A stretch of 64,000 nucleotides of DNA from Kineosporiaceae bacterium. Its GTDB lineage: Bacteria > Actinomycetota > Actinomycetes > Actinomycetales > Kineosporiaceae. The notes under the pieces were generated by a model, which made no database searches, was not told the DNA's origin, and worked only from the letters and a program-made list of their open reading frames with translations. The position numbers were made by a program, and so were the translations under genes. The stretch covers positions 1 to 64,000 of the forward strand of contig JAEUJN010000015.1 in assembly GCA_016794595.1 (NCBI GenBank). Direction: 5' to 3'. Shown here piece after piece: positions 1,442 to 57,799 of the stretch (position 1 is the stretch's first letter; each line of letters begins with the position of its first letter).

Positions 1442-1480
1442 CGCCCGCACCGTCCGGTCGACACCATCAGACCACCCCCG

Positions 1481-1528
1481 GGTGGTCCCATGCTCGTGGC
1501 AACCCAGGTGGTCCCATCCCCGTGGCAA
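1481..1528. repeat. IS21 right-end subterminal direct repeats
   Basis: Two 22-base copies, at 1481-1502 and 1507-1528, share the pattern GGTGGTCCCAT followed by CGTGGCAA and differ at two positions. They sit downstream of istB. Repeated subterminal blocks are characteristic transposase-binding sites at IS21 ends. The element probably ends in CA near 1533-1534, where the frame of the interrupted DUF4287 gene resumes. Confidence 0.7.
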
Positions 1529-1534
1529 GCGACA

Positions 1535-2030
1535 GGATCGACCTCGAGCTGGGCCGGGACCGCAGCTCGGTGACGGTGTCCGGGAACAGCTCCCCTCTCT
1601 GCCCGTCGTCCAGCAGCGCGGCACGCAGGGCATGAACGTCGGCGCGGACGATGCGGGACTTGCTCGCCGCGAAGCTGCCGTCTGCCAGCTGATACGGCAG
1701 CCGCAGACCGGTGATGCGTTCGTACCCGATGGTCACGGCCTGGCTCCACCAGCCGTCCAGGCCGTGAGCTGCGCGCAGGAACGCGGCGATCGCTGGGTGG
1801 CCGCGATCAGCCCCCACGGACGTCTCGATGAGCTCGCACCAGTCGTCCCAGCCCTTGCCCGTCCCCCGCCGGATCGCCTCATCGGACATCTCCGGCAGAG
1901 CGGCCCACGGACGCGGTGAGTCAACGGGCCGGGCCTGCAACAACAACACGCGGCGAGCCGCCAGGTACCGCTCCCCCGTGGTCGCCATCCGGTGGCGAAT
2001 CCGTGCCTTGAAGGACTCCTGCCTGGTCAT
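1535..2030 (-). pseudogene. DUF4287 domain protein interrupted by IS21 (3' truncated)
   Basis: From the ATG at 2028-2030 the frame encodes an N-terminal stretch, then a typical DUF4287 block (TGKGWDDWCELIETSVGAD, HPAIAAFL, HGLDGWWSQAVTIGYER). The beginning of the SRPBCC/AHSA1-like domain that normally follows (SKSRIVRADVHALRAALLDD) is also present. The frame then runs into the IS21 end around 1534 and reads element sequence to a stop at 1467. Most of the C-terminal domain is lost, so this is a disrupted gene. Its function is unknown; DUF4287-SRPBCC proteins are uncharacterised. Confidence 0.75.
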
Positions 2031-2287
2031 GTCAACTGCTCTCGGGTGCCTCGACGGCGTCACGTACCGGTGACCCACGTTCACCGTCGTGCGCCAGGGC
2101 ACCGACAGTCAGCAGCAGACGGGACTCCCCACCGGGCACTCAGGGTCCCCTTTGCCTTCCGGAGCCGGATCGTGGGTTCCGGGTGAAGGTCGGGCGCGGC
2201 GAGGTCGCCCATCCGTCACGTTAGCCAGCTCCTCAGCCCGGGCGCAACAGCTCGAGGGTCAGTTGTCGAGGGCCAATTGTCGAGGGG

Positions 2288-3628
2288 TCAGTTGTCGAGG
2301 ATCATGCCGGCGGCGACGGTGACGTTGGTGGTCTCGTCGATCAGGACGAAGCCGCCGGTGTGTCGGTTGCGGCGGTAGGGGTCGGCGAACAGGGGGCTGG
2401 TGGTGCGCAGGACGATCCGGCCGATCTCGTTCAGGCCCAGTGACGGGGTGGCTTCGTGGCGGTGCAGGGTGTTGATGTCCAGGGTGTACCGCAGCTGCTT
2501 GACCATGGCCCGCACGGATTTGGTGGTGTGTTTGAGGGCCAGCTTCTGACCCGGGGCCAGCGGCTTGTCGCTCATCCAGCAGACCATGGCCTCGATGTCC
2601 TGGGTCACCATGGGCGCGTTGTTCGGCCGGCAGATCATGTCGCCGCGGCTGATGTCGAGTTCATCGGTCAACCGGATGGTCACCGCCATCGGTGGGAACG
2701 CCTCGGCGACCGGGCCGTCCATGGTCTCGATGGAGGCGATCCGGGAGGAGAACCCCGAGGGCAACACGATGATCTCATCACCCGGTTTGAAGACCCCGGA
2801 TGCGATCGTGCCGGCGTAGCCGCGGTAATCGTGGACGTTGGCCGACTGCGGGCGGATCACGTACTGCACCGGGAAACGGGCATCGATCAGGTTGCGGTCA
2901 CTCGAGACGTGCACATTCTCCAGGTGGTGCAACAGGCTCGGCCCGTCATACCACGGGGTGTTCACCGACCGGGTGACGATGTTGTCCCCGTGCAACGCCG
3001 AGATCGGGACCACGGTCAGGTCCGGCAGGTCCAGCTTGGCCGCGAAGTCCACGAACTCCTCGTGGATGGCCTCGAAGACCTCCTGGGAGTAGTCGACCAG
3101 GTCCATCTTGTTGACCGCCAGCACCAGGTGCGGCACCCGCAACAACGTCGCGATGAACGCGTGCCGCCGCGACTGCTCGACCAGGCCCTTACGGGCATCG
3201 ACCAACACGATCGCCAGGTCGGCGGTCGAGGCCCCGGTGACCATGTTGCGGGTGTACTGGATGTGCCCGGGGGTGTCGGCGATGATGAACTTGCGCCGCG
3301 GGGTGGCGAAATACCGGTAGGCCACATCGATCGTGATGCCCTGCTCCCGCTCGGCCCGCAGGCCATCGGTCAGCAACGCCAGGTTCACGTAGTCATCGCC
3401 CATCCGGGCGCTGGCCGCCTCCACCGCGTCCAACTGATCCGCGAAGATCGACTTGGAGTCGAACAACAACCGCCCGATCAGCGTCGACTTCCCGTCGTCC
3501 ACGCTGCCCGCCGTGGCGAAACGCAGCATGTCCATCCCCCGCGGACGCCGCCGGCGCTCACCCTCGCGTGGGGACCAGGCCCGCCCCGCGACGTCGTCCG
3601 CTGGTGCGCTCGGAGTGGGGATGTCCAT
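2288..3628 (-). CDS. cysN: sulfate adenylyltransferase large (GTPase) subunit CysN
   Basis: A 446-residue GTPase subunit of ATP sulfurylase. It couples GTP hydrolysis to formation of adenosine 5'-phosphosulfate from sulfate and ATP. The P-loop GSVDDGKS lies near residue 45, with DTPGH near 115 and NKMD near 170, followed by EF-Tu-like beta-barrel domains. No APS kinase (CysC) domain is fused at the C-terminus, unlike some actinobacterial and proteobacterial homologues. About 30 arginine- and proline-rich residues precede the GTPase domain. The start overlaps the cysD stop as TGATG at 3626-3630, so the two subunits are translationally coupled. Confidence 0.96.
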   Translation of the reverse strand: MDIPTPSAPADDVAGRAWSPREGERRRRPRGMDMLRFATAGSVDDGKSTLIGRLLFDSKSIFADQLDAVEAASARMGDDYVNLALLTDGLRAEREQGITIDVAYRYFATPRRKFIIADTPGHIQYTRNMVTGASTADLAIVLVDARKGLVEQSRRHAFIATLLRVPHLVLAVNKMDLVDYSQEVFEAIHEEFVDFAAKLDLPDLTVVPISALHGDNIVTRSVNTPWYDGPSLLHHLENVHVSSDRNLIDARFPVQYVIRPQSANVHDYRGYAGTIASGVFKPGDEIIVLPSGFSSRIASIETMDGPVAEAFPPMAVTIRLTDELDISRGDMICRPNNAPMVTQDIEAMVCWMSDKPLAPGQKLALKHTTKSVRAMVKQLRYTLDINTLHRHEATPSLGLNEIGRIVLRTTSPLFADPYRRNRHTGGFVLIDETTNVTVAAGMILDN

Positions 3629-4584
3629 CAGAAGTAACCCTCCCGCTTGCGGTCCTCCATCGCGGCCTCACTGAACTTGTCATCGCCCCGGGTGGCACCC
3701 CGCTCGGTGATCCGGGTGGCAGCCACCTCGGCGATGATCTTCTCGACCGTGTCGGCGTCACTGCGCACCGCCGCGGTCAGACTGGCATCGCCCACCGTCC
3801 GGTACCGCACCCGCGCCGTGAACAACTCCTCACCCTCCCGCGGACGGCAGAACTCGTGATCGGCGAACAACATCCCACCCCGCTCGAACACCACCCGCTC
3901 ATGAGCGAAGTAGATGCTCGGCAGATCGATGCCCTCCCGCTGGACGTACTGCCAGATGTCCAACTCGGTCCAGTTCGACAACGGGAACACCCGGATCGAC
4001 TCCCCCAGATGAATCCTCCCGTTGTAGATCGACCACAACTCCGGACGCTGGTTCTTCGGATCCCACTGCCCGAACTCATCCCGGAACGAGAACACCCGCT
4101 CCTTGGCCCGAGCCTTGTCCTCATCCCGGCGCGCCCCCCCGAACGCCGCCGTGAAGGCGTGCTTGTCCAGCGTCTCCAACAACACCGGCGTCTGGATCCG
4201 GTTCCGCGTGCCGTCCGGCAGTTCGTGCACCGTGCCGGCGGCGATCGCCTCCGGCACACTGCCCACGATCAACTGCACCCCCAGCTCGGCCACCCGCCGA
4301 TCCCGGAACTCCAACACCTCACCGAAGTTGTGCCCCGTGTCCACGTGCAACACCGGGAAAGGGATGCGCGCCGGCCAGAACGCCTTCTCCGCCAATCGCA
4401 ACATCACGATCGAGTCCTTGCCACCGGAGAACAACAACACCGGCCGCTCCAACTCCGCCGCAACCTCACGGAAAACATGGATCGACTCCGCCTCCAGAGT
4501 CGACAACTCCGAGAGCCGGTACTCCTGCTGGCTGCTGCTCAGCTCACTCACCTCTGTGGGCGGGTGCGATGTGGGCGCACTCAT
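3628..4584 (-). CDS. cysD: sulfate adenylyltransferase small subunit CysD
   Basis: A 318-residue adenylyltransferase subunit that forms APS with CysN in assimilatory sulfate reduction. It is a PP-loop nucleotide-binding protein, with the motif SGGKDS near residue 54, then HVDTGHNF and a C-terminal RYRTVGD block typical of CysD. It lies between cysQ (25-base gap) and cysN (1-base overlap) in a leftward operon. The ATG at 4582-4584 gives a family-normal N-terminus, although no clear Shine-Dalgarno precedes it. Confidence 0.96.
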   Translation of the reverse strand: MSAPTSHPPTEVSELSSSQQEYRLSELSTLEAESIHVFREVAAELERPVLLFSGGKDSIVMLRLAEKAFWPARIPFPVLHVDTGHNFGEVLEFRDRRVAELGVQLIVGSVPEAIAAGTVHELPDGTRNRIQTPVLLETLDKHAFTAAFGGARRDEDKARAKERVFSFRDEFGQWDPKNQRPELWSIYNGRIHLGESIRVFPLSNWTELDIWQYVQREGIDLPSIYFAHERVVFERGGMLFADHEFCRPREGEELFTARVRYRTVGDASLTAAVRSDADTVEKIIAEVAATRITERGATRGDDKFSEAAMEDRKREGYF

Positions 4585-4609
4585 GGAATGGGTGTCGGCG
4601 CGTCACGGC

Positions 4610-5431
4610 TCAGCCCTGAGCCAACGCGGCAGTGGCGGTCACGATCGTGCGGGCCAACTCCGGACGGCACACCACGAGATCGGGCAGGCGCGGATCCGGC
4701 TGGTTGTAGCGCAACTGCGTGCCGTCGATCCGGCTGGTGTGCAGCCCGACAGACCGGGCGACGGCAACCGGGGCGGCCGAGTCCCACTCGAACTGGCCTC
4801 CGGCGTGCACGTAGGCGTCGGTCTCACCCCTCCAGACCGAGGCGCACTTGACCCCGGCCGAACCCATCGGCACCAGGACGGCGTCCAGCCGCTCGGCGAG
4901 TTCGGCCACGAAGGCCGGGGGTCGGGTCCGGCTCACCGCCAGGCGCAGCGGCCCGTCCACCCGCTCGGGCAGCTTCGGCGGGGCGTCCGTGCAGTAACAG
5001 ACCCCGTCGGCGGGCATGGCGACCGCACCGGCGACCAGATCACCGTCGGCCCACAGCGCCACGTGCACAGCCCAGTCGATCCGTCCTGGCTCGGAGAACT
5101 CGCGGGTACCGTCCAGCGGGTCGATGATCCAGACCCGGGCCGCCGTCAGCCGGGCCGCGTCGTCCGGCGCCTCCTCGGAGAGCACGGCGTCGTCCGGGCG
5201 GTCGTCGTCCAGCCGGCGGGCGAGCACGGCCTGCGCCCCGGCGTCCCCGGCGGCCTTCAGGCTGCTGCCACTGAACCCGCCGCGGCGGATCTGCACCAGC
5301 ACCTCGCCCGCCTCGACCGCCAGACTGCGGGCGAGTTGGGCATCGGCGTTCACGACGGCACCCGGGCGCGGGGACCTGGCCGCTCTCGCGGAGTCCGACG
5401 TGCCGGTGGCGGCCGCCCGATTTCGAGACAC
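4610..5431 (-). CDS. cysQ: 3'(2'),5'-bisphosphate nucleotidase CysQ
   Basis: A 273-residue member of the inositol-monophosphatase superfamily. It hydrolyses the phosphoadenosine phosphate (PAP/PAPS) by-products of sulfate assimilation. The metal-binding motifs are EEAPDD near residue 86, DPLDGT near 104 and WDSAAP near 217. It is the first gene of the cysQ-cysD-cysN operon, which supports the CysQ role over a general inositol phosphatase. The chosen start is the GTG at 5429-5431, preceded by GAGGATGATCC; the N-terminal 25 residues look low-complexity, so an internal GTG start is possible. Confidence 0.9.
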   Translation of the reverse strand: MSRNRAAATGTSDSARAARSPRPGAVVNADAQLARSLAVEAGEVLVQIRRGGFSGSSLKAAGDAGAQAVLARRLDDDRPDDAVLSEEAPDDAARLTAARVWIIDPLDGTREFSEPGRIDWAVHVALWADGDLVAGAVAMPADGVCYCTDAPPKLPERVDGPLRLAVSRTRPPAFVAELAERLDAVLVPMGSAGVKCASVWRGETDAYVHAGGQFEWDSAAPVAVARSVGLHTSRIDGTQLRYNQPDPRLPDLVVCRPELARTIVTATAALAQG

Positions 5432-5582
5432 GGATCATCCTCGGGGTGCGGGTCGAACAGGATTGTGCGGCGGAGCCACGATGCTCCCTCGCTGGTCGCG
5501 AGCGATGGCACGCCACTCGACGGTACCGCAGCATCCGGTACCCCCCGTGAGCGCTGCATCGCACCGCGCGCTGCAGTCGAGC

Positions 5583-6560
5583 CTAACCGACGACTCGGGC
5601 CCCCACACGCACCAGAGGTGTGCCGGGAATCTCCTCCAGGCACGGGCTCCAGGCGGCTCCGGCCGTACTGCGGGCCGCCAGCAGGGCGATGCCACGATCG
5701 GCCAGGCCGTCGTGCAACCGCCGCCCACCCAGGCCGGAGACGTCCGGGTCGGAACTGAGGGCCACGGCGTCCACGGACAGCTCGGCCGCCATCTCGACCA
5801 GCGCCGCCACCTCGATCTCGTCCAGGACGACCGGCACCCCCAGCGACGGGGTGTGCGGGTAACCGTCGAACGGCAGGGCCGCGCCGACGATCACCAGTCC
5901 GCTGCCGGGGGCGGCGTCCACCGTCTCGATCAGCCGCGCCGTGGGCTCGGGGTGCCCGATCACCAGCACCCGCTGCAGGCCCCGCCCCCGCCGGCGCTGG
6001 CCGTGCACCCAGCGCTCGGCCATCACCCGCACCAGGCAGGAACCCAGCACCAGCCCGGCGCCCGCCACCGGCGGCAGGGGCCGGGAGACCTGCGCGTGCG
6101 CCAGGAAGGCCAGCCCCGCGGTGGCGGTCACGAACACCATGCCGGCGACGGCCACCTCGCTGATCGCCGGCCCGGTCGGCGCGGGCTCGGGCCGGTAGCC
6201 ACCCCGCCAGCCGAGCAGCATCATCCAGACTGCGGGCAGGCACATGGCCAGGAGCACTCCGGCCGGATCGTGGACGCCGGCCACGCCCGTGATGCCCACC
6301 GCGGTCACCAGCGCCGCCAGCGCGTCGCCCAGCACCAGCGCCCGGCGACGGCGGTGATCGACCGCCGACGCCGGCACCGGCTGGTCCCCGACCACGTCGG
6401 GGCGGGGCAACAGGATCAGCCGGTGCAGCGGGTGACGCGGCTGATGGTCGGCGGCGCCGCCCGGGGCAGGCCGCGTCAGGCTCAGGTCGGCTTCCGGGGC
6501 GCGATCGGGCTCACGGACGACGGTGATCTCGGGTCGGTGCCCGTGACGGTGGATCGACAT
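5583..6560 (-). CDS. WcaJ/polyprenyl glycosylphosphotransferase-like membrane protein lacking the sugar transferase domain
   Basis: A protein of about 325 residues from the ATG at 6558-6560. After a charged cytoplasmic stretch there are about four hydrophobic segments (residues 75-175). A Rossmann-like CoA_binding_3 region follows (QRVLVIGHPEPTARLIETVD near residue 200). This is the N-terminal half of initiating sugar-1-phosphate transferases for exopolysaccharide. The catalytic bacterial sugar transferase domain, normally 200 further residues with a KFRTM motif, is absent: a TAG stop follows ...LVRVGARVVG. Either it is a truncated relic or a stand-alone regulatory form. No continuation was found in the next 150 bases in any frame. 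Confidence 0.6.
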   Translation of the reverse strand: MSIHRHGHRPEITVVREPDRAPEADLSLTRPAPGGAADHQPRHPLHRLILLPRPDVVGDQPVPASAVDHRRRRALVLGDALAALVTAVGITGVAGVHDPAGVLLAMCLPAVWMMLLGWRGGYRPEPAPTGPAISEVAVAGMVFVTATAGLAFLAHAQVSRPLPPVAGAGLVLGSCLVRVMAERWVHGQRRRGRGLQRVLVIGHPEPTARLIETVDAAPGSGLVIVGAALPFDGYPHTPSLGVPVVLDEIEVAALVEMAAELSVDAVALSSDPDVSGLGGRRLHDGLADRGIALLAARSTAGAAWSPCLEEIPGTPLVRVGARVVG

Positions 6561-6736
6561 GGTTCGGCCACTCCCCGTTGGCTGGTCCCTGCGTCGTGTC
6601 CGCAGGAATATCAGGCAGCTCACGGACCGGGGACGCCGCGCGGCGGCGCGTCCTACACCTCGGGACCACAAACCGGCCGAACGGCCGAGTTCGCCGTCCG
6701 CTCACCCGAGGAGGCCACCACCCGAACAGGCGAGGC

Positions 6737-6778
6737 CGAACGGGTGAGGCGGAACGGGTGGCGCCGAACGGGTGGCGC
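6737..6778. repeat. three tandem 14-base repeats upstream of pth
   Basis: Three adjacent 14-base units (6737-6750, 6751-6764, 6765-6778) share the core GAACGGGTG and end GAGGC or GGCGC. They lie in the non-coding interval between pth and the truncated glycosyltransferase-like gene. No function is evident; replication slippage is a sufficient explanation. Confidence 0.6.
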
Positions 6779-6828
6779 AGCGGAGGCACCGAGAACTCGG
6801 ACGACGCGGACGGGCCCGGCCGAGCGCC

Positions 6829-7473
6829 TCAGCTCGACGTCGCGCGGGTGTTGACCTCGGCCTGGGCCCGCTCCCAGCCGCGCAGGGCCACCTCGCGGAC
6901 GACGTCCGCGGCCTGGCCGACCATCACTGCGGCGTCCTCGCGCTCGGCGGCGGAGAAGTCCCGCAGGACGAAGTCGGCGGCCTCCATCCGGCCGGGTGGC
7001 CGTCCGATGCCCAGACGCAGCCGGCAGTAGTCACGACGGCCGAGGGACTGGGAGATCGACCGCAACCCGTTGTGCCCGGCCTCGCCGCCGTCGCGCTTGA
7101 GCCGCAACTGACCGAAGGGCAGGTCGAGTTCGTCGTGCACGACCAGCAGGCGCTCGGTCTGGACGCCGTAGAACCGTGCCAGGCCGGACACCTGCCCCCC
7201 GGACAGGTTCATGAAGCTGCTCGGGACGGCGAGCACCATCCGGGGACCGGGCAGGGGGCCCGTCGGGGTGGAGACCGGCGGCAGGCGAAGCTCGGCCACC
7301 AGCGCCCGGGTCTTGTGCTGTCGCAGCCGAACGCCGAGTTCCCCGGCCAGTGCGGTGACCGTCATCGCCCCGGCATTGTGCCGGTGGCCGGCGTAGGCGG
7401 GGCCGGGATTGCCCAGGCCGACCACCAGCCAGGTGTCGTCGGGCGACTCGGGGTCGCCCGGCGACGGGCTCAC
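6829..7473 (-). CDS. pth: peptidyl-tRNA hydrolase
   Basis: A 214-residue enzyme that cleaves the ester bond of peptidyl-tRNA released from stalled ribosomes. Family marks include [11 protein letters not shown] near residue 17, the catalytic histidine in GHRHNAG, FMNLSGG, HDELDLP and [10 protein letters not shown]. Length is slightly above the usual 190 because of a 12-residue N-terminal extension. The start overlaps the rplY stop by 4 bases; the rplY-pth pair is widespread in actinobacteria. Confidence 0.96.
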
Positions 7474-44880: not shown

Positions 44881-46173
44881 TCATGCCGCGGTGGGCTCAC
44901 AGTGTCGCGCCAGCCAGGTCCGGACGGCGTGTGCGGCGTTCGCCGCGCCGTCCACGGTGGCGTACCACCCCTGCACTCGCGCCGCACCGGCGGCGAAGCC
45001 CGGCTCGGTGAGCACGCGTCGCACGGCCTCGGTGAGGCGGGGGCTGTCCGCGTGGCGGGGGGCGACCGCGAGGGCGGCGCCCTGGCGGGCGGCGAGGCCG
45101 ACGTTGAGCTCCTGCTCCGCGTGCAGCGGGATGCCGACCACCGGCGTCCCGCTGGCCATGGCCGTCTGGATGCTCCCCTGGCCACCCATGGTCACGGCCA
45201 CGTCCACGCGCGGCATGACGCGGTGATTGGGCAGAAGCCCGGCGACGACCACGGCCGGGTCGTCACTCGGGCCGTGATCGTGGATCGTGGCGCCGACGAT
45301 CACCCGCACCCCGGATGCCCGGACCCGCCTCACCACCGCCCGCAACGTGTCGGGAGTGGTGGAGGAGAGGACGACCAGCGCCGTGGGCTCGGACCCGTCC
45401 AGGAAGGCCTCGACGGCGGCTGGGATCGGCAGGTCGAGCCGGGCGAACAGCGGGCCGGTGGCCACTAGGTGAGTACCGGCACGGAAGGCCCGGGGACGGC
45501 GAGGCTGCCAACGCTCCAGGTCGTCCGCGCTGATGCCCAGCACGTGCGCCGTGTCGGTGACCAGGGTCAGGTCCCCCAGCATCAAGGCCGCCAGCGTGGG
45601 GACCCGCTCGACCCCGAGCTCGTCGGCGACCTCGTTGAGGAACCGAGTGGCCCCCGCCATCCGCATCGGAGTGCCGTTGGCGAAGCGGCGTTTGAGCCAC
45701 GCGGGAATCAGGTCGGCGGCCGGGATGGGCATGCTCGTGGGCGCGGGCGCCAGGCCGCGTTCGAAGATCGGCGGCACGTAGGAACCACCGTGCGAGGTCA
45801 CCAGGGGGATCTGGGCCACCCGGGAGGAGAGGTAGGTGGTCAGGGTGAACCCGGTGATCACCGCCCGAGCACCCACCGCCCGGAAGAACTCGGCTTCGGC
45901 GGCGACGCTGCCCCGCACCTCCTCCGCCGGCTGCATCCGGACCCCCGGACGGCCGATCTGGACCAGATCACGCAGGAACGCCGCGCAGCGGAGGGCGTCG
46001 AAGCGCGGCTCGAGCAGGGTGTACTGCTCCCCGGCGTCGTCCAGCACCCGGGTGAACGGGCCGCCGTGGGTGGCGAGGCAGACCGCCTCGCCCTGCCTGC
46101 GCAACGCCTGGGCCAGGTGCAGCATGCGAGAGGTCTCGGACAGGAAGCCACAGTGTGGCACCAGGGCGATCAT
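44881..46173 (-). CDS. GT1-family (UDP-glycosyltransferase/MGT-like) glycosyltransferase
   Basis: 430 residues with the two-domain GT-B layout of GT1 enzymes: N-terminal MIALVPHCGFLSETSRMLHLAQALRRQGEAVCLATHGG and a C-terminal donor block MGGQGSIQTAMASGTPVVGIPLHAEQELN (about residues 350-380). The usual leading His of that motif (HGGxGT) is Met here. MGT-type enzymes glycosylate macrolides or other small molecules; the acceptor is unknown. GAGGAGG lies six bases before the ATG at 46171-46173. It is divergent from a MarR gene with a shared 42-base promoter region. Confidence 0.85.
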   Translation of the reverse strand: MIALVPHCGFLSETSRMLHLAQALRRQGEAVCLATHGGPFTRVLDDAGEQYTLLEPRFDALRCAAFLRDLVQIGRPGVRMQPAEEVRGSVAAEAEFFRAVGARAVITGFTLTTYLSSRVAQIPLVTSHGGSYVPPIFERGLAPAPTSMPIPAADLIPAWLKRRFANGTPMRMAGATRFLNEVADELGVERVPTLAALMLGDLTLVTDTAHVLGISADDLERWQPRRPRAFRAGTHLVATGPLFARLDLPIPAAVEAFLDGSEPTALVVLSSTTPDTLRAVVRRVRASGVRVIVGATIHDHGPSDDPAVVVAGLLPNHRVMPRVDVAVTMGGQGSIQTAMASGTPVVGIPLHAEQELNVGLAARQGAALAVAPRHADSPRLTEAVRRVLTEPGFAAGAARVQGWYATVDGAANAAHAVRTWLARHCEPTAA

Positions 46174-46198
46174 GAGCTGCCTCCTCGGTGGACGAGAC

Positions 46199-46215
46199 AA
46201 GGTAATATATTGGAT
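46199..46215. promoter_or_regulatory. shared AT-rich promoter/operator between glycosyltransferase and marR genes
   Basis: The 42 bases between the two divergent start codons contain AAGGTAATATATTGG, a TAATATATTA-like palindrome. TAATAT at 46203-46208 ends seven bases before the marR ATG (leaderless). MarR binding here would control both genes; this is inference. Confidence 0.55.
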
Positions 46216-46737
46216 ATGACCTCTCGCGAGCAATGGCTCGACCTCTCACTCGACGGCCTCGACGCCGCTCGGGCCGATCGGGTGCGGGCCTTCCGCGTGC
46301 TGATGGTCGTGGGAATCCGCCTGCGCGGCCTGCTCGACCGGGCTCTGGCCCCCAGCGGGCTCACCGCCCAACAGGGGGCGATGGCGTCCTGGATCGAGGC
46401 CCAGCCAGCGCCGCCCACGATCTCGGCCGTGGCCGCCGGCCTCGGGATGACGCATCAGAACGTCAAGCAGATCGCCCTTGCCCTCGAGCGCAAGGGCCTG
46501 GTGGACATCCAGGTCGATCCTGATGACCGACGCGCTCGCCGGCTGGTGCTGACCGAGGCACACGGCGAGTTCTGGGGCCGACGCAACCCGCACGACCTCG
46601 CCGCGGTCCAAGACTGGATGGCCGTCTGGACCGAGGACGAGGTGAGTGAGGCGCTGAATCTCCTCCTTCGCCTTCACCATCACCTCGCCTCGCAGGACCC
46701 CCGTGCCTCACAGGGCCTCCATGCCTGGCAGGACTGA
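46216..46737 (+). CDS. MarR family transcriptional regulator
   Basis: A 173-residue winged-helix protein. The core is RALAPSGLTAQQGAMASWIEAQP, TISAVAAGLGMTHQNVKQIALALERKGLVDIQVDPDDRRARRLVLTEAH. It is divergent from the GT1 glycosyltransferase gene and likely represses it and itself. The ATG follows the TAATAT element by seven bases and no Shine-Dalgarno is needed. It is convergent with the copper-ATPase gene, 31 bases away. Confidence 0.9.
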   Translation: MTSREQWLDLSLDGLDAARADRVRAFRVLMVVGIRLRGLLDRALAPSGLTAQQGAMASWIEAQPAPPTISAVAAGLGMTHQNVKQIALALERKGLVDIQVDPDDRRARRLVLTEAHGEFWGRRNPHDLAAVQDWMAVWTEDEVSEALNLLLRLHHHLASQDPRASQGLHAWQD

Positions 46738-46768: not shown

Positions 46769-48901
46769 TCAACGACCCGGCAGCTCGAGCCGCTTCAGCA
46801 GCAGCGCGTTGAGCGCCACGATGAGTGATGAACCCGACATCGCCAGCGCGGCGATCTCCGGGCGCAGGGTCAGCCCGAAGGCGGGCTCGAGGACACCGGC
46901 GGCGATCGGCAGGGCGACGGCGTTGTACCCGATCGCCCACGCGAGGTTCTGGCGCATTGTCCTCAGGGTGCCCCGGCCGACCCGCAGCGCCGTGGGCACG
47001 TCGAGCGGGTCGGAGCGCATCAGGACGACGTCGGCGGTCTCGATGGCCACGTCGGTGCCGGCACCGATCGCGATCCCGAGGTCGGCCGCGGCCAGCGCCG
47101 GGGCATCGTTGACGCCGTCCCCGACCATGGCGACCCGGTGGCCGTCGGCCTGGAGCGCCCGGATCTGCTGTGCCTTTCCCTCCGGCAGGACCCCCGCGAT
47201 CACGGTGTCGATCCCGACCTGGTCGGCGATCCGCCGGGCGGTGCCGGCGTCGTCCCCGGTCAGCATGACGACGCGAGCACCCAGCGCGTGCAGCGCCGCG
47301 ATGGCACCCGGGGCACTGTCGCGAGTGGCATCGGCCAACGCGATCACCGCCACGACGGCGCCGTCGATGGCAACCAGGATCGCCGTCCGCCCCCGGCCGG
47401 CGAGCTCGGCGCGCGCCTCGGCGGCAGCGTGCGGGATGCTCACGCCGTGTCCGGTGAGCAGGCGCGTGGCGCCGACCAGCACGGTGTGACCGTCGACGGT
47501 GCCGCGAGCCCCCGCGCCGGGCACGTTCTCGAAGCCGGTCGCGGCGAGCACCGGGACCCCGGCGTCCACGGCATGGCGGACGATCGCCGACGCCAGCGGG
47601 TGTTCGGACTCGCGCTCGACCGCCGCGGCCAGCGCGAGGAGTCGATCCTGCGCCATCGACGCTCGCGCATGCCCGGCCGGGATGAGTCGGATCTCGGTGA
47701 CCGCAGGCTCGCCGGTGGTCAGGGTGCCGGTCTTGTCCAGGACGACAGTGTCGATCCGAGCAGACTCCTCGAGGGCCGTGGCAGTCTTGAACAGCACGCC
47801 GCGCCGAGCGGCCAGGCCGGTGCCCACCAGGACGGCGGTGGGGGTGGCCAGGCCCAGGGCGTCGGGGCAGGTGATGACCACGACGGTGATCGCGAACAGC
47901 AAGGCCTCGGCACTCCCCCTGCCTGCGCCGATCCAGGCCAGGTAGGTCGCCGCCCCACCGAGCAGGGCCACCAGAACCAGCCAGAAGGCGGCTCGGTCGG
48001 CCAGCCGCTGACCGGGCGCCTTGGACTCCTGGGCCTGCCGGACCAACGCGACGATCTGCGCGAGAGCGGTATCCGCACCGACCTTGGTCGCGCGGACCCG
48101 CAGTGACCCGGTGGTGTTGACCGAGGCGCCGATCACCTCGCTGCCGGGCTGCTTGCCGACGGGCAGGGACTCCCCGGTGACCATCGACTCGTCGAGCTCG
48201 CTCTCGCCCTCCTCGACCATCCCGTCGACGGGCACCTTGGCCCCGGGACGCACCAGCAACAGATCACCGACCACGATGTCCGCTGTGGCGATCTCGACCT
48301 GCTCCGGACCGTCAGCCCCCTGCCTGATCACGATGGCCTTGGGCGGGGCCAGCTCGAGAAGGGTGCGCACGGCGTCGTTGGCACCACCCCGGGCGCGCAT
48401 CTCGAACCAGTGCCCCAGCAGGACGAACGCCGTCAGGACCGAGGCCGCCTCGTAGAAGACCTCACCACCTCCGGTCACGGTGACCCCCAGGCTGTAGGCC
48501 CAGGCGGCCGTGATCGCGACCGCGACCAGCACCATCATGTCCAGCGTGCGGGCGCGCAGCGCCGACCATGCGCCCGCGAAGAAGATCCATCCGGAGTAGA
48601 ACACCACCGGCAGGCTGAGCAGCAACGAGAACACGTCGTCCCGCAGCCCGACGGGAGCGCTCACCGTGAAGCCCAACACCTCCCGGCCGATCGGCGACCA
48701 CAGCAGGATCGGGACCGAGAGGGCCGCGGCCACGAGGAACCTCCGACGCAGATCGGCGGCCATGGCATGCGTCGACATCCCCGCATGACCTGCATGACCC
48801 CTGGGTTCTGCATGACCGGCGCTGCCTGCCCCGTCCGCCCGACCGGGGGGCCCGCCGTGACCGGCATCGGGCGAGCTCGTCAACTGCTCGGTGTCCTGCA
48901 T
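46769..48901 (-). CDS. P1B-type heavy-metal (copper) ATPase, CPD variant
   Basis: 710 residues. The N-terminus is a His/Gly-rich segment (residues 10-45) in place of an HMA domain, followed by eight transmembrane helices. The key metal-site motif is CPDALGLATP near residue 355 rather than CPC or CPH. TGES near residue 245, DKTGTLT near 400 (phosphorylated Asp), HP motif SEHPLA and GDGVNDAP near 625 are intact. The ATG at 48899-48901 has GGAGG six bases upstream. Expression is probably controlled by the CsoR box 60 bases upstream. Copper export is inferred from that box and the divergent oxidase. Confidence 0.9.
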   Translation of the reverse strand: MQDTEQLTSSPDAGHGGPPGRADGAGSAGHAEPRGHAGHAGMSTHAMAADLRRRFLVAAALSVPILLWSPIGREVLGFTVSAPVGLRDDVFSLLLSLPVVFYSGWIFFAGAWSALRARTLDMMVLVAVAITAAWAYSLGVTVTGGGEVFYEAASVLTAFVLLGHWFEMRARGGANDAVRTLLELAPPKAIVIRQGADGPEQVEIATADIVVGDLLLVRPGAKVPVDGMVEEGESELDESMVTGESLPVGKQPGSEVIGASVNTTGSLRVRATKVGADTALAQIVALVRQAQESKAPGQRLADRAAFWLVLVALLGGAATYLAWIGAGRGSAEALLFAITVVVITCPDALGLATPTAVLVGTGLAARRGVLFKTATALEESARIDTVVLDKTGTLTTGEPAVTEIRLIPAGHARASMAQDRLLALAAAVERESEHPLASAIVRHAVDAGVPVLAATGFENVPGAGARGTVDGHTVLVGATRLLTGHGVSIPHAAAEARAELAGRGRTAILVAIDGAVVAVIALADATRDSAPGAIAALHALGARVVMLTGDDAGTARRIADQVGIDTVIAGVLPEGKAQQIRALQADGHRVAMVGDGVNDAPALAAADLGIAIGAGTDVAIETADVVLMRSDPLDVPTALRVGRGTLRTMRQNLAWAIGYNAVALPIAAGVLEPAFGLTLRPEIAALAMSGSSLIVALNALLLKRLELPGR

Positions 48902-48960
48902 CTCGTCCTCCCGGGACCGAGGGCTCTCGCCGTGGGAGCCTCCAGGCACCCGCAACAGGG

Positions 48961-48977
48961 ATACCCCTATGGGGTAT
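48961..48977. promoter_or_regulatory. CsoR operator between copper ATPase and multicopper oxidase genes
   Basis: ATACCCCTATGGGGTAT, a 17-base palindrome with 7-base arms, matches the CsoR consensus of G/C-tract half sites. It lies 60 bases before the ATPase start and 189 bases before the oxidase start. CsoR binds such boxes and releases them on Cu(I). No csoR gene is in the window. Confidence 0.85.
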
Positions 48978-49165
48978 TTCCCAACCTCGGGGTCGCGCAT
49001 CCACCGCGGACTTCACGGAATCTTCACCAGCCCATCGGGAGAACCCCGACAGTGCCCGTCGAGAGTGAGGACGGCGCTGGGCGAGCCCGGCAACCCAGCC
49101 GCCGCTGTAGCGACCCGGCCCCACAGCACTGCACTGCACCGCACCGACGATCGAGGAGGTCGACC

Positions 49166-50713
49166 GTGAGGCGGACGGGGCTCTCCCGGCGTCAGGTTCT
49201 GCGCGGGATCGCCGGTGCCGCCGGCCTGGCCGCCGTGTCCGGTTGCACCCGCGAGGTTCCCCACGGATCGGCACACGCCGCCGCGGCGCCGTCCGCACTG
49301 GCCGGGGCCGTGCGCGCGGCGGAGGCGGCTCGACCCACCACCGGAGCAGTCCGCACCTTCTCCCTGGTGGCACAACCGGCCGAGGTCGACCTCGGCGGCA
49401 GGATCGTCTCCACCTGGACCTACGGCGGCGTCCTGCCCGGAGCGCCGTTCCGTGCCACCGCCGGTGACCGGGTGCGGATCGCCGTGCGCAACGAGTTGCC
49501 CGAGCCGACCAGCGTGCACTGGCACGGCCTGGCGATTCGCAACGACATGGACGGCGTCCCCGGCCTGACCACACCGGAGATCGGCACAGGGGCGACGTCC
49601 ACGTACGACTTCGTCGTCCCCGACCCGGGCACCCATTGGTTCCACCCTCACCACGGGCTGCAGCTCGACCGGGGCCTGTCCGCGGCGTTCATCATCGATG
49701 ACCCAGGCGATCCGGGTGACCACGACGTCGAGTGGGTGCTGCTCCTGGACGACTGGACGGACGGCGTCGGCCGCAGCCCCGAGCAGATCTACGCCGATCT
49801 GACCGGGGGCACACCGACGGACGGCTCGGCCATGCGGCCCGACGAGGCGGATGGGATGGGCGGGATGGCTGGGATGGGTCATGGGGGTGACGCGGGCATG
49901 CGGGGCATGGCGGACATGTCCCCGGACGGCGACGTGACCTACCCGCTGTACCTGATCAACGGGCGCGGCCCGGAGGCGCCGGAGGTGTTGCGCGCCCGGG
50001 CGGGACAACGGGTTCGGCTGCGCATCGTCAACGCCGCCGCGGACACGATCTTCACCGTCGCGCTGGGCGGACACCGGCTGACGATCACCCACACGGACGG
50101 GTTCCCCGTGGCGCCGGTCACCACCTCCGCCGTGCGGATCGGCATGGGCGAACGCTACGACGCCGTGGTGACCCTCGAGGACGGGGTGTTCCCCCTGGTG
50201 GCCGCCCCCTCGGGCAAGCAGGGGACGGCGCGAGCCCTGGTCACGACAGGCGCCGGCACGCCACCGCCCACCTCGCAGCTCCCGCCCGAGCTGTCGAGCC
50301 GGCCGCTGACCGCCGAGCTGCTCAGCGCGACCGAGGACGCCGCGCTACCCGCCGGGGACCCCGACACCGAGCTGGACCTGATCCTCGCCGGAACGATGCA
50401 TCCCTATGTCTGGACGATCAACGGCACCACCTATGACCGGTCGGCGCCGCTGATGATCCGACCCGGGCAGGCCGGTCGGATCCGGATCCGCAACCACTCG
50501 ATGATGTCCCACCCGGTGCACCTGCACGGCCACACCGTTCAGCTCGGGCCTGCCGGGGGTACCGGCCCCCGCAAGGACACCCTGCTGATGCCACCCATGG
50601 GTGGGGCTGACGTCGCCCTGATCGCGGACAACCCCGGCCGCTGGATGGTCCACTGCCACAACGCTTATCACGCCGAGGCGGGAATGATGACCCGCCTGGA
50701 CTACCAGCTGTGA
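49166..50713 (+). CDS. Tat-exported lipoprotein multicopper oxidase
   Basis: 515 residues. The N-terminus carries a Tat motif (LSRRQVLRG) with a lipobox ending LAAVSGC, so a Tat lipoprotein. Cupredoxin domains follow, with copper sites THWHG-type SVHWHGLAIRND (about 120), HWFHPHHG (about 160), HPVHLHGH (about 455) and HCHNAYHAEAGMM (about 500). A Met-rich loop (MGGMAGMGHGGDAGMRGMADM region, about 230-250) suits a cuprous oxidase. It probably detoxifies Cu(I) outside the membrane. The GTG has GAGGAGG six bases upstream. Confidence 0.92.
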   Translation: MRRTGLSRRQVLRGIAGAAGLAAVSGCTREVPHGSAHAAAAPSALAGAVRAAEAARPTTGAVRTFSLVAQPAEVDLGGRIVSTWTYGGVLPGAPFRATAGDRVRIAVRNELPEPTSVHWHGLAIRNDMDGVPGLTTPEIGTGATSTYDFVVPDPGTHWFHPHHGLQLDRGLSAAFIIDDPGDPGDHDVEWVLLLDDWTDGVGRSPEQIYADLTGGTPTDGSAMRPDEADGMGGMAGMGHGGDAGMRGMADMSPDGDVTYPLYLINGRGPEAPEVLRARAGQRVRLRIVNAAADTIFTVALGGHRLTITHTDGFPVAPVTTSAVRIGMGERYDAVVTLEDGVFPLVAAPSGKQGTARALVTTGAGTPPPTSQLPPELSSRPLTAELLSATEDAALPAGDPDTELDLILAGTMHPYVWTINGTTYDRSAPLMIRPGQAGRIRIRNHSMMSHPVHLHGHTVQLGPAGGTGPRKDTLLMPPMGGADVALIADNPGRWMVHCHNAYHAEAGMMTRLDYQL

Positions 50714-50746: not shown

Positions 50747-51520
50747 TCAGGCCGTGACCTCCAGGGCATGGGCCAATCGCGCGACCCGGTGGTCGATGTC
50801 GGCATAGGCGGTCTCGAAGGCCTCGTCGGTGTCGGCGGCGGCAGGGTCGGGAATGGCCCAGTGCAACCAGCCACGGCCCACAGCCCCTGCCGGCCGGGTC
50901 AGGGGCCGGTCGATCGTCAGGGCGCTGAGCTCCTCGTGGGCGTTGTCGCACACGGCGACCAGCACATCCCCCGCCTGCACCGTGTCCTCGACCAGCCGCG
51001 TGCGGGGGGAGCGCAGCGCCAGCCGGTGCCGACGGGCAGCGGCCAGGGTGCGGGGGTGCACCCGCTCGGCCGGGTGAGTTCCGGCGCTGGTGGCCGGGAT
51101 CGAACTGACCTGGGCCCACCGCGCGGCGGCCAGTTGGGACCGGGCCGAGTTGTGCGTGCACACGAACACCACCCGGGGTAGTCGGGCCGGCGCCGGCGGG
51201 TGGGTGCCGGCAGCAGAGGCCTCGACGAGCGTGGCGACCGACGGATCGTCCCAGCGCAGTTGCACGTAGGTGCGGCGCTTGTCGCCCTCGGAGCGCACCC
51301 GACGGATGATCCCTGCCTCCTCGAGCGTGCCGAGGTGGAAGGCCAACAGGTTGGTGGCGAGTCCGGTCGCAGAAGCGAGTTCCCCGGGCGAGGCGTCGCC
51401 GTAGGTCAGGTGATCGACCAACTGCAGTCGTACGGGTTCGCCGAGTGCCGCGAACCGGGCAGCACGCCGTCCGAGCATGTCCTCACCCGCTTCAACCGGT
51501 CGTCGCCTGTCCAGGGTCAT
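50747..51520 (-). CDS. ArsR-ArsC fusion: arsenic repressor fused to LMW-phosphatase-type arsenate reductase
   Basis: 257 residues. An ArsR winged helix (about 20-95: ALGEPVRLQLVDHLTYGDASPGELASATGLATNLLAFHLGTLEEAGIIRR) is joined to a low-molecular-weight-phosphatase-type ArsC. The reductase P-loop is VFVCTHNSARSQLAAARW near residue 118. The usual CVC arsenic ligands of ArsR are absent, so the sensing site, if any, is elsewhere. It is divergent from an aquaporin gene, with a palindromic operator between. Reduction and sensing in one chain would couple arsenate handling to control; that is inference. Confidence 0.88.
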   Translation of the reverse strand: MTLDRRRPVEAGEDMLGRRAARFAALGEPVRLQLVDHLTYGDASPGELASATGLATNLLAFHLGTLEEAGIIRRVRSEGDKRRTYVQLRWDDPSVATLVEASAAGTHPPAPARLPRVVFVCTHNSARSQLAAARWAQVSSIPATSAGTHPAERVHPRTLAAARRHRLALRSPRTRLVEDTVQAGDVLVAVCDNAHEELSALTIDRPLTRPAGAVGRGWLHWAIPDPAAADTDEAFETAYADIDHRVARLAHALEVTA

Positions 51521-51538: not shown

Positions 51539-51569
51539 TTGACTCAATGGTGATTGAGTCAACTATGAT
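51539..51569. promoter_or_regulatory. palindromic operator and leaderless promoter of the arsenic aquaporin
   Basis: Perfect 10-base arms TTGACTCAAT (51539-51548) and ATTGAGTCAA (51553-51562) flank GGTG. TTGACT serves as -35 and TATGAT (51564-51569) as -10, six bases before the aquaporin ATG. The operator lies across the promoter, as expected for ArsR repression. It is also 18 bases upstream of the ArsR-ArsC fusion start. Confidence 0.8.
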
Positions 51570-51575
51570 AGCCCC

Positions 51576-52385
51576 ATGAGCGAGGTCACGGCAGCCCCCG
51601 GTGCGGCGCACTCCCCCGACCCCCAGACCCAGCCGTCGCCCCCGCCGGATCCGTTGCCCCCGTTGGCCCGCCGGCTGCTCTCCGAGGCGGTCGGCACCGG
51701 CCTCCTGGTCGCGGTCGTGGTGGGTTCCGGGATCGCGGCGCAGCGCCTCTCCCCGAACGACGTGGGCCTGCAGTTGCTCTACAACTCCCTGGCCACGGTG
51801 ATGGGGCTCACCGTGCTCATCCTGCAGTTCGGCCCGGTCTCCGGCGCCCACTTCAACCCGGTCGTGTCCTTCGCGGACTGGCTGCTCGGGCACCGCAGCG
51901 GGCACGGCCTGCCCTTGCGCGACGTGGCCTGGTACGCCCTCGCCCAGACCGTCGGCGCGATCGCCGGGGCCGGTCTGGCCAATCTCATGTACGGCCTTCC
52001 GGCCGTGGCGATCTCGACCCACCACCGGGTCAGCGGTGGGGTCCTGCTGTCCGAGGTGGTGGCCACCGCGGGCCTGATCGGGATCATCTTCGCCCTCGCC
52101 CGTTCCGGCCGGGCACCCCTGTCCGCAGCGGCGGTCGGTGCGTACATCGGGGCGGCGTACTGGTACACCGCGTCCACCTCGTTCGCCAACCCCGCCGTGA
52201 CCGTCGGGCGCATGTTCTCGGACACCTTCGCCGGCATCGCCCCGGGCTCGGTGCCGGCGTTCATCGGCGTCCAGATCATCGGCTGCCTGGTCGGCGCACT
52301 GCTGGTTCGGGCGCTCTACCCGGACGTCGGCGAGGCCGCCGACGACGTCGTCGTCGCCCACCTGGACTATCAGCAACGCCCCTGA
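51576..52385 (+). CDS. aquaglyceroporin-type channel (AqpS-like) in arsenic operon
   Basis: 269 residues with six hydrophobic helices. The two half-helix motifs are HFNPVVSF (NPV in place of NPA, near residue 91) and FANPAVTV (near residue 208). A proline-rich 30-residue N-terminus precedes them. In ars operons such channels let As(OH)3 leave the cell down its gradient after arsenate reduction. Context and the ArsR-type operator support that role. Its ATG is leaderless. It is followed by arsC 45 bases downstream. Confidence 0.87.
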   Translation: MSEVTAAPGAAHSPDPQTQPSPPPDPLPPLARRLLSEAVGTGLLVAVVVGSGIAAQRLSPNDVGLQLLYNSLATVMGLTVLILQFGPVSGAHFNPVVSFADWLLGHRSGHGLPLRDVAWYALAQTVGAIAGAGLANLMYGLPAVAISTHHRVSGGVLLSEVVATAGLIGIIFALARSGRAPLSAAAVGAYIGAAYWYTASTSFANPAVTVGRMFSDTFAGIAPGSVPAFIGVQIIGCLVGALLVRALYPDVGEAADDVVVAHLDYQQRP

Positions 52386-52430: not shown

Positions 52431-52859
52431 GTGGCCTTCAAGTCCGACAAGCCCTCCGTGCTCTTCGTCTGCATCCACAACGCCGGCCGCTCCCAGATGG
52501 CCGCCGGCTGGCTCGCCCACCTCGCCGGTGACGCCATCGAGGTCCGCTCCGCCGGCACCGCACCCGCCGACCAGGTCAACCCGGCCGCCGTCGCGGCGAT
52601 GCAGGAGGTCGGCATCGACATCACCTCGGCCACCCCGAAAGTCCTCACCGGAGAGGCTGTTCAGGTCAGTGACGTGGTGATCACCATGGGATGCGGGGAC
52701 ACCTGCCCCTTCTACCCCGGCACCCGTTACCTCGACTGGCCGCTGGAGGACCCCGCGGGGCAGGGCCTCGAGGCGGTCCGACCCATCCGGGACAAGATCA
52801 GGTCCAACGTCGAGCAGCTCATCGCCGAACTGCTCCCCGACCGCAGCGCCACCGCCTGA
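52431..52859 (+). CDS. arsC: arsenate reductase ArsC (LMW-phosphatase fold)
   Basis: A 142-residue arsenate reductase. The catalytic P-loop is [18 protein letters not shown] near residue 14 and the second cysteine pair lies in [12 protein letters not shown] (about 86). [10 protein letters not shown] near residue 100 holds the general-acid Asp. It converts arsenate to arsenite, with electrons either via thioredoxin (trxB follows) or mycothiol; the sequence does not decide. The GTG start has AAAGGA about six bases upstream. It lies between the aquaporin and trxB genes. Confidence 0.92.
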
Positions 52860-52888
52860 GCGGTTGCGGGACCAGGGGAGCAGCTGAC

Positions 52889-53893
52889 ATGCCGAGTGAT
52901 GTCCGTGACGTGATCATCGTCGGATCGGGCCCGGCCGGGTACACCGCCGCCATCTATGCCGCCCGAGCGGACCTGAACCCGTTGGTGTTCGAGGGGTCGG
53001 TGACCGCGGGCGGTGCGCTGATGACCACCACGGAGGTGGAGAACTTCCCCGGCTTCCCGACCGGCATCCAGGGGCCCGACCTGATGGCGCAGCTGCGCGA
53101 GCAGGCGGCCCGGTTCGGTGCCGAGCTGGTCGCGAACGACGTGGTGGCCCTGCGCCTGACGGAACAGGTCAAGGAGGTCGACGTCCCGGCCGAGACCGGG
53201 GTCGGGGTGGTCACCCACCGGGCCAGGGCCGTGATCCTGGCGACCGGCTCGGCCTACCGCGAGCTCGGGCTGCCGAACGAGAAGCGGCTCTCCGGCCGGG
53301 GGGTGAGCCGGTGCGCCACCTGCGACGGGTTCTTCTTCCGCGGCCAGGACATCGCCGTGGTCGGTGGCGGGGACTCCGCGGTCGAGGAGGCCACGTTCCT
53401 GACCCGGTTCGCCGCCTCGGTGACCCTGATCCACCGCCGGGACAGCCTGCGCGCCTCGAAGATCATGCAGGCGAGGGCGTTCGACGACCCGAAGCTGCAC
53501 CTGCGCTGGAACAGCGAGGTCGTCGACGTGCTCGGCCAGGACAAGGTCAGCGGCATCCTGGTCCGCGACACCCGAACCGGCGCGGAGCAGGACCTGGCCG
53601 TGACCGGCCTGTTCGTCGCGATCGGCCACGACCCCCGGGTCGACCTCGTGCGCGACCAGCTCACCCTGGACGACGCCGGCTACATCGCCGTCCAGGGCCG
53701 TTCGACGTTGACCTCGCTGCCGGGGGTGTTCGCCTGCGGCGACGTGGTCGACCACACCTACCGGCAGGCGATCACGGCTGCGGGCTCCGGGTGTGCAGCG
53801 GCCCTGGACGCCGAGCGCTTCCTCGCCGCCCAGACCGACACCCCATCGGCACCGGTCACCGCCACTGCGGCGGAGCCCACCGCCGCCCGCTGA
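52889..53893 (+). CDS. trxB: thioredoxin-disulfide reductase
   Basis: A 334-residue low-molecular-weight NADPH thioredoxin reductase. FAD motif [15 protein letters not shown] near residue 13, redox-active CATCDG near residue 146, NADPH motif [12 protein letters not shown] near 165 and [16 protein letters not shown] near 285 are all present. Its place in the ars operon (29 bases after arsC) suggests it supplies electrons for arsenate reduction or for the CxxC protein downstream. GGGAG precedes the ATG. Confidence 0.95.
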
Positions 53894-53978: not shown

Positions 53979-54015
53979 CACTTCAAGCGTGGTTGCATCG
54001 ATCGCCGTTGAAGTG
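53979..54015. promoter_or_regulatory. palindromic operator upstream of second arsR
   Basis: Arms CACTTCAA (53979-53986) and TTGAAGTG (54008-54015) are exact reverse complements, 21 bases apart. They overlap the start of the arsR gene. The sequence differs from the other two ars operators in the window. Confidence 0.6.
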
Positions 54016-54312
54016 AACGCCCTGGACGGCGCGGCCGGGCCGGCAGCGCTGCTGGCGGTCGCCGCGGATCCGAACCGGCTCGCGGTGCTGCAGGTCCTGG
54101 CCGGTGGGACCACGTGTGTGTGCCGCCTGCAGGAACAGATCCCGATCGCGCCGAACCTGTTGAGCTATCACCTCAAGGTGCTCCGCGAGGCGGGATTGAT
54201 CAGCGCTGCCCGACGTGGTCGGTGGATCGACTACTCCCTGAACGACTCTGCGCTCCAGCGGCTGCATGCGGCACTGCCGGCCGTCCCGGTCGACGAACCG
54301 AGCCCGCGGTGA
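54013..54312 (+). CDS. arsR: ArsR family repressor with CVC arsenic site
   Basis: About 99 residues of ArsR/SmtB winged helix: AADPNRLAVLQVLAGGTTCVCRLQEQIPIAPNLLSYHLKVLREAGLISAARRGRWIDYSLN. The TTCVCRL segment corresponds to the ELCVCDL metalloid-binding motif. The start is uncertain: the GTG at 54013 is preferred for length, while one at 53989 would add eight residues and overlap the operator. The stop overlaps the permease start (GTGA), so repressor and permease are co-translated. Confidence 0.88.
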   Translation: MNALDGAAGPAALLAVAADPNRLAVLQVLAGGTTCVCRLQEQIPIAPNLLSYHLKVLREAGLISAARRGRWIDYSLNDSALQRLHAALPAVPVDEPSPR

Positions 54313-56740: not shown

Positions 56741-57658
56741 TCAGGCCGGCTTGGTCGCGCGGACGAAGGCGCTGGCCACCGCACCGTCCATCGCGGCCAG
56801 CACGGAGGCGAGGTCTGCCGGGATGTCCTCGGGGCGAAGACCTTCCACGAGATCGAGCAGGTCCTCACGGTCGTAGGTGCGGGTGATCTCCACCGCGGCG
56901 TCGGTGAAACCGGTCGCGGTCAGCTTCTCGACATACTCGGTGTCCAGCAGGGCGCCGGCGATGCACCCGGTCCACAGTCGCATCGCCCGCCGCGCGGGCT
57001 CGGGCAGCGGGCGCGTCACCACGATGTCGGAGACGGCGAATCGCCCACCCGGGGCCAGCACCCGGAACGCCTCCCTCAGGACCGGGTCCTTGTCGGCGGC
57101 CAGGTTGATCACGCAGTTGGAGATGACGACGTCAACCGTGTTGTCCGGCAACGGGATGTCCTCGATCGTGCCCTGCAGGAACTCCGCGTTCGACACCCCG
57201 GCCTCGGCCTGGTTCCGCCGGGCGAGGTCCAGCATCTCCGGGGTCATGTCCAGGCCGTAGGCCTTACCGGTGGGACCGACACGTCGAGCGGACAGCAGCA
57301 CGTCCAGCCCGCCGCCGGATCCCAGGTCCAGGACGGTCTGTCCGGCCGTGAGTTCGGCCAGCGCGGTCGGGTTGCCACACCCCAGGGACGCCGCGAGCGC
57401 CCCGGCGGAGGTCTGCTCGGCCTCGGCGTCGTACAGGTCGCGGGTGATCGGGTCAGCCGCCGAGGTGATCGAACCCTGCCCGGCCTCCTCGGACCCACCG
57501 CAACAGGTCGGACCGCAGCACGAGCCGGTCGCACCACCGGCATCGAGGGCGAGACTGGTCTGCCGCGCGGCCGCGGCGTAGCGATCGCGGACCGCCTCGC
57601 GCAGGTCCTCGGGACTCATCGCGGCGGGATCGGTTGTGGTCGACGGGGTCTGGCTCAT
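56741..57658 (-). CDS. arsM: arsenite S-adenosylmethionine methyltransferase ArsM
   Basis: 305 residues with the SAM motif VLDLGSGGGLDVLLSA near residue 92 and conserved ArsM cysteines in ALAASLGCGNP (about 75), SNCVINL (about 170) and TGCIAG (about 220). A Cys-rich run GSCCGPTCCGG near residue 45 is unusual and may bind As(III). The enzyme methylates arsenite to volatile or exportable methylarsenicals. The ATG at 57656-57658 is the family-length start. It is divergent from the third arsR. Confidence 0.92.
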   Translation of the reverse strand: MSQTPSTTTDPAAMSPEDLREAVRDRYAAAARQTSLALDAGGATGSCCGPTCCGGSEEAGQGSITSAADPITRDLYDAEAEQTSAGALAASLGCGNPTALAELTAGQTVLDLGSGGGLDVLLSARRVGPTGKAYGLDMTPEMLDLARRNQAEAGVSNAEFLQGTIEDIPLPDNTVDVVISNCVINLAADKDPVLREAFRVLAPGGRFAVSDIVVTRPLPEPARRAMRLWTGCIAGALLDTEYVEKLTATGFTDAAVEITRTYDREDLLDLVEGLRPEDIPADLASVLAAMDGAVASAFVRATKPA

Positions 57659-57767
57659 CGGATCACTCTCATTCCACGGGTCGCCTGGGCGACAGCGGCT
57701 TCGGCACCAGCGAACTCGCCGTTGCTGTTTCGATGTTTGTCGAATCAGCTCCATCATTGCCCCATGC

Positions 57768-57799
57768 TTCGACAACTGTCAAGATAGACAGATGTCGAA
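57768..57799. promoter_or_regulatory. operator of the third arsR / arsM intergenic region
   Basis: TTCGACAACTGTC (57768-57780) and GACAGATGTCGAA (57787-57799) pair at 12 of 13 positions around AAGATA. The right arm covers the arsR ATG at 57792. A half-size copy (TTTCGATGTTTGTCGAA, about 57728-57744) lies on the arsM side. Confidence 0.7.

Follow-up and report, generated by a model that had tools for sequence, protein, structure and literature searches.

What does an ArsR-type repressor sense when the classical arsenite ligands are missing and an arsenate reductase domain is joined to it in one chain? The question is raised by a reverse-strand gene at positions 50747-51520 of the window analysed here, a 64,000-nucleotide stretch of a Kineosporiaceae bacterium (contig JAEUJN010000015.1), which encodes 257 residues from the ATG at 51520 or 243 from the ATG at 51478; relatives often begin nearer the latter, and the alignment permits the shorter form. 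Strand and length agree with the first-pass annotation, which had read the frame as an ArsR-ArsC fusion without a CVC motif, and Pfam recovers both domains, an ArsR-type winged helix (HTH_20, residues 26-75, reverse-strand positions 51296-51445, E 1e-7) followed by an ArsC/LMW-PTP domain (LMWPc, residues 117-249, reverse-strand positions 50774-51172, E 5e-15). Carrying these two domains in one chain, similar over its full length to other actinobacterial fusions and placed among ars genes, the protein belongs to the actinobacterial ArsR-ArsC fusion family. Well-studied ArsR repressors take arsenite as their signal. The helix that bears CVC in the classical proteins reads ELASATGLATN here, and because the only cysteines of the chain, Cys121 and Cys191, both lie in the ArsC domain, the HTH part is devoid of CVC and of any other thiol: no cysteine precedes residue 121, and a cysteine-based As(III) site of the classical ArsR kind is absent.

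Both remaining cysteines are invariant across 119 of 119 fusions. Cys121 (codon 51158-51160, reverse strand) occupies the nucleophile position of the P-loop FVCTHNSARS, and Cys191 (codon 50948-50950, reverse strand), in a VCD motif, is the equivalent of Cys82 of pI258 ArsC. Seven residues further on, at the position of pI258 Cys89, stands Leu198 (codon 50927-50929, reverse strand), a leucine in 90 of the 119; in pI258 ArsC (Cys10, Cys82, Cys89) the Cys82-Cys89 spacing equals that from Cys191 to position 198. Arg127, Ser128, Asp192, His220 and Trp221 are likewise invariant, Asp225 is kept in 117/119, and in 95/119 fusions the equivalents of Cys121 and Cys191 are the sole cysteines within the matched region. 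Eighty loci (L039-L118) came from a pattern scan whose motifs include one or other cysteine, and the same pattern is found at 37 loci drawn from whole-genome protein searches free of that bias. The two invariant cysteines, together with the fixed Arg and Ser of the P-loop and the nearly invariant Asp225, indicate that the chemistry of arsenate capture is retained; since Cys121 and Cys191 are the only thiols of the chain and are fixed in the family, any thiol-based signal must arise at them. The earlier suggestion that the reductase cysteines might supply the signal gains indirect support from this pattern.

The same invariance could be read in another way, with As(III) binding Cys121 and Cys191, perhaps across the dimer, and thereby releasing the repressor. 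Arsenite sites occur at differing places among ArsR proteins, some of which evolved As(III) sites at new positions, and the fusion is surrounded by other arsenic genes. Binding of arsenite would, however, need neither the invariant P-loop Arg and Ser nor the near-invariant Asp225, a separate CVC-type ArsR is present at 46/118 loci, and the Rhodobacterales fusions described below regulate an arsenate-only pathway, so that we regard a relocated arsenite site as unlikely.

Is the fused domain then a reductase? With the P-loop cysteine it has one distal cysteine instead of the two of thioredoxin-coupled ArsC, and the fusion protein scores 27 bits against TIGR02691, for which the cut-off is 174; the cysteine count thus rules out a working three-cysteine enzyme, and the presence of an invariant Cys191 at the resolving position rules out the mycothiol type, which has the P-loop cysteine only. 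Stand-alone ArsCs of the fusion loci look different: 115/135 have the P-loop cysteine and at least two distal ones, 19/135 the P-loop cysteine only and 1/135 no recognised P-loop, while the P-loop-plus-one pattern occurs in 0/135. Fused ArsC domains also form a clade apart from the stand-alone proteins (46/46 of the sample, support 1.0), and a complete three-cysteine ArsC accompanies at least 92 of 118 fusions within the DNA stretch examined per locus. These observations bear on the notion of a bifunctional protein, in which a functional arsenate reductase is attached for convenience to an ordinary repressor and the arsenite that it releases is the signal. Such a protein would fit the conserved catalytic residues and is how the published Leptospirillum ArsRC model treats the fusion, but the family lacks the third cysteine of thioredoxin-coupled ArsC, a complete enzyme is usually close by and the HTH part retains no arsenite site that could read the product; we consider it quite improbable. 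As the third cysteine is missing and a complete ArsC is usually nearby, the fused domain is probably no turnover reductase. The first-pass view of a direct reporter of arsenate reduction can accordingly be refined: the domain more likely detects arsenate by becoming trapped in a covalent state.

An AlphaFold2 monomer model built from 26 relatives reached a mean pLDDT of 89. Foldseek matches to the model include Archaeoglobus 1y1l, Deinococcus ArsC2 (8p6m/8p5n) and pI258 ArsC structures, among them 1LK0, annotated as the C89L mutant's disulfide intermediate. Given this last match, the fused domain is a natural counterpart of the mutant halted at the Cys10-Cys82 disulfide. In most relatives the link between wing and ArsC domain is short, suggesting that the ArsC domain sits about where the last helix of the ArsR dimer usually is, an arrangement in which ArsC domain and HTH may be coupled.

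On the DNA side, a perfect dyad, TTGACTCAAT-GGTG-ATTGAGTCAA, lies at 51539-51562 between the fusion and a divergent aquaporin gene and constitutes a putative operator, exactly where the first-pass annotation had placed a palindrome common to both genes. Shuffles of the window give no such matches by chance, and the 4.95 Mb genome contains no second match even when two mismatches are allowed. It is conserved in relatives: TGASTCA-N8-TGASTCA occurs upstream of 98/116 fusions (at most 3 mismatches in 14), where resampled sequence predicts about 1.5, with a half-site spacing of 15 predominating, and it falls within the shared region at 21 of the 29 loci in which the fusion has an aquaporin gene as its divergent neighbour. 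By eye, the dyad of mycobacterial fusions overlies the apparent -10 region and extends into the start codon. In the window a TATGAT box, also seen by eye, precedes the aquaporin start by about seven bases, a distance that suggests a leaderless transcript; a scan of the intergenic region for sigma-70 consensus promoters returned nothing at its thresholds.

Across the dyad from the fusion, the forward strand encodes a MIP-family aquaporin (51576-52385), a stand-alone three-cysteine ArsC with Cg_ArsC1'-like cysteine spacing (52431-52859), an ArsT-like thioredoxin reductase (52886-53893) and another ArsR, this one bearing the classical CVC motif as TTCVCRL (53989-54312), followed by an ArsP-like permease, a thioredoxin-like protein and ACR3. 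An ArsM-like arsenite methyltransferase lies beyond these on the reverse strand (56741-57775), its methyltransferase domain preceded by a cysteine-rich GSCCGPTCCGG stretch. On the other side the arsenic genes are adjoined by a CopA-like multicopper oxidase (49199-50713, forward) and a copper-type P-type ATPase (46769-49000, reverse), which suggests a joint metal-resistance island. Further out, the reverse-strand frame 44881-46233 encodes a glycosyltransferase with distant likeness to macrolide glycosyltransferases, under every curated cut-off.

How far does this arrangement extend? The fusion had been called unusual, and the search for its distribution proposed at that point, once run, revealed a common actinobacterial architecture. 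It is present in 38/296 evenly drawn Actinomycetota genomes (E <= 1e-25), a scan of species genomes yielded 80 relatives in many actinobacterial genera, nearly all full-length, and plasmids of Rhodococcus, Arthrobacter, Mycolicibacterium and others carry it as well. These genome counts rule out rarity, and examples were already in print, from Leptospirillum, Microbacterium and Sinorhizobium (PMC6205960) as well as in a network of actinobacterial ArsCs, as its clusters C4 and C7 (PMC6514093). Dactylosporangium sp. AC04546 (L055, frames at 2564 and 3287) has two tandem fusions, of which one is divergent and lies outside the main clade of actinobacterial fusions. Searches of viral contigs returned a single one (IMGVR_UViG_3300023118_000010, loci L009/L119), which has the fusion near its end and could represent a mobile element or host sequence assigned to the wrong bin.

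Counted over 118 fusion loci with flanks of 1.5-5 kb, and therefore as minima, the neighbours comprise an ArsC in 94, an aquaporin in 60, an ArsR resembling the CVC one in 46 and ACR3 in 15. Among the evenly drawn genomes a fusion lies no more than 1.5 kb from 14 of 46 such aquaporins versus 4 of 52 close ACR3s (Fisher p = 0.004), a contrast that persists at 4 kb (Fisher p = 0.025). The fusion probably controls the adjoining genes for an arsenite channel and an arsenate reductase. Some fusions adjoin ACR3 instead of an aquaporin, which rules out an exclusive link between fusion and aquaporin and counts against the arsenate-sensor reading set out below.

A minority of loci point towards phosphate. 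The fusion and pstS are divergently arranged in five mycobacteria and on R. erythropolis pREL1; at these pstSCAB loci (L121, positions 866-5693, for pREL1; L071, L073, L078, L100 and L112) PHO-box-like repeats lie between the divergent genes. LMW-PTP folds bind phosphate, and one might therefore propose that phosphate is sensed in the PTP-like pocket, or oxidants by the two cysteines, with the arsenic link being secondary. Linkage to pst is nonetheless a minority feature beside the 94/118 loci with an ArsC, and at the pst loci the dyad is distant from pstS and belongs to the promoter of the fusion itself, making a phosphate or redox sensor very unlikely in our judgement.

A looser search extended the comparison to Rhodobacterales plasmids, where ArsR-ArsC fusions head gapdh-arsJ operons (L130, positions 3958-7059, on C. 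sphaeroides 2.4.1 pDE, and L126, L127, L131, L133 and L134). In the gapdh-arsJ pathway arsenate is handled as 1-arseno-3-phosphoglycerate and arsenite is not needed, and the related var operon of V. cholerae is arsenate-inducible, its ArsR having been suggested as an arsenate sensor (PMC9601151). No arsenite exporter occurs in the stretch read for C. sphaeroides 2.4.1, Roseicitreum or Paracoccus MC1862; one is present there in R. capsulatus and Ruegeria. The Rhodobacterales fusions group with separate alphaproteobacterial ArsCs, apart from the actinobacterial ones, which rules out a single origin and implies that the fusion arose at least twice. Their ArsR part documents a stepwise loss of CC-GR-LC, the site of separate alphaproteobacterial ArsRs: Ruegeria and Roseicitreum have it complete, Martelella retains part of it, C. 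sphaeroides and Rhodobacter CZR27 have it cut down to DCGRGRPDLM, and R. capsulatus and Paracoccus lack it, so that the arsenite-site cysteines are lost in four of the seven fusions compared. Taken with the actinobacterial pattern, these losses mean that both lineages include members whose HTH part has no arsenite site and whose arsenate-binding domain is kept, and one of the two sits on an arsenate-only operon. The third ArsC cysteine is kept in the Rhodobacterales fusions; a disulfide trap is hence not general.

We slightly favour, on the strength of comparative sequence evidence, an arsenate-responsive autorepressor in which the ArsC domain would be the sensor and a Cys121-Cys191 disulfide or an arseno-cysteine the likely signal. 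ArsRC2 of Microbacterium sp. A33 reportedly represses its own operon. In the absence of arsenate, the fusion protein would bind the dyad, silencing the aquaporin-arsC-trxR genes as well as the divergent gene that encodes it. On entering the P-loop of its ArsC domain, arsenate would be attacked by Cys121, and Cys191 would resolve the arseno-cysteine, yielding a Cys121-Cys191 disulfide and releasing arsenite. Because the third cysteine that would pass the disulfide on is missing, the domain would stay in the disulfide state, and the accompanying change of shape would take the repressor off DNA until a cellular thiol system resets it. By this logic the arsenite channel would be opened only while the cell itself is producing arsenite from arsenate. 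More tentatively, and with somewhat less than even confidence, we propose that ArsR-ArsC fusions in general sense arsenate directly, by means of a natural ArsC that has no exit cysteine and is trapped in the first disulfide by one round of arsenate chemistry, turning an enzyme into a covalent ligand switch, and that sensing by fusion had at least two origins, one in Actinomycetota and one in Rhodobacterales, with the third cysteine kept in the latter. As a whole, the interpretation given in the first-pass annotation is partly supported.

The protein family is already known; literature searches on ArsRC2 and on arsenate-sensing ArsR returned no paper on this mechanism and no account of the fused protein's ligand. 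If correct, the fusion family would provide a mechanism for an arsenate-sensing ArsR, with a half-stopped reductase domain as the sensor, would explain how a cell keeps an arsenite channel shut against outside arsenite, and could serve in whole-cell biosensors that distinguish arsenate from arsenite.

Among known systems, the closest are ArsRC2 of Microbacterium sp. A33 and the C4/C7 clusters (PMC6514093), which likewise combine ArsR and ArsC in one chain within an ars cluster; Microbacterium and Rhodococcus fusions align with the present one over nearly the full length, and to these published proteins our comparison adds the cysteine signature and the operator dyad. With thioredoxin-coupled pI258 ArsC the fused domain shares the fold, the P-loop, the VCD cysteine and the HW-DP region, but it lacks the Cys89 equivalent, as does the C89L mutant, and has an N-terminal HTH added. 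Classical CVC ArsR repressors have the same winged-helix part and a dyad operator, here putative, in the ars promoter, whereas the HTH part of the fusion is cysteine-free and its last dimer helix is shortened or replaced by ArsC. The Rhodobacterales gapdh-arsJ fusions, such as that of C. sphaeroides 2.4.1 pDE, have the same domain order, and several lack the ArsR arsenite-site cysteines, yet they represent an independent fusion with the third ArsC cysteine kept and with other target genes. Finally, S. meliloti AqpS and the Salinispora channel-ArsC fusion (PMC6205960) also set an aquaporin beside ArsC as a likely exit for arsenite; channel and reductase are here separate genes, and the regulator itself bears a further ArsC domain.
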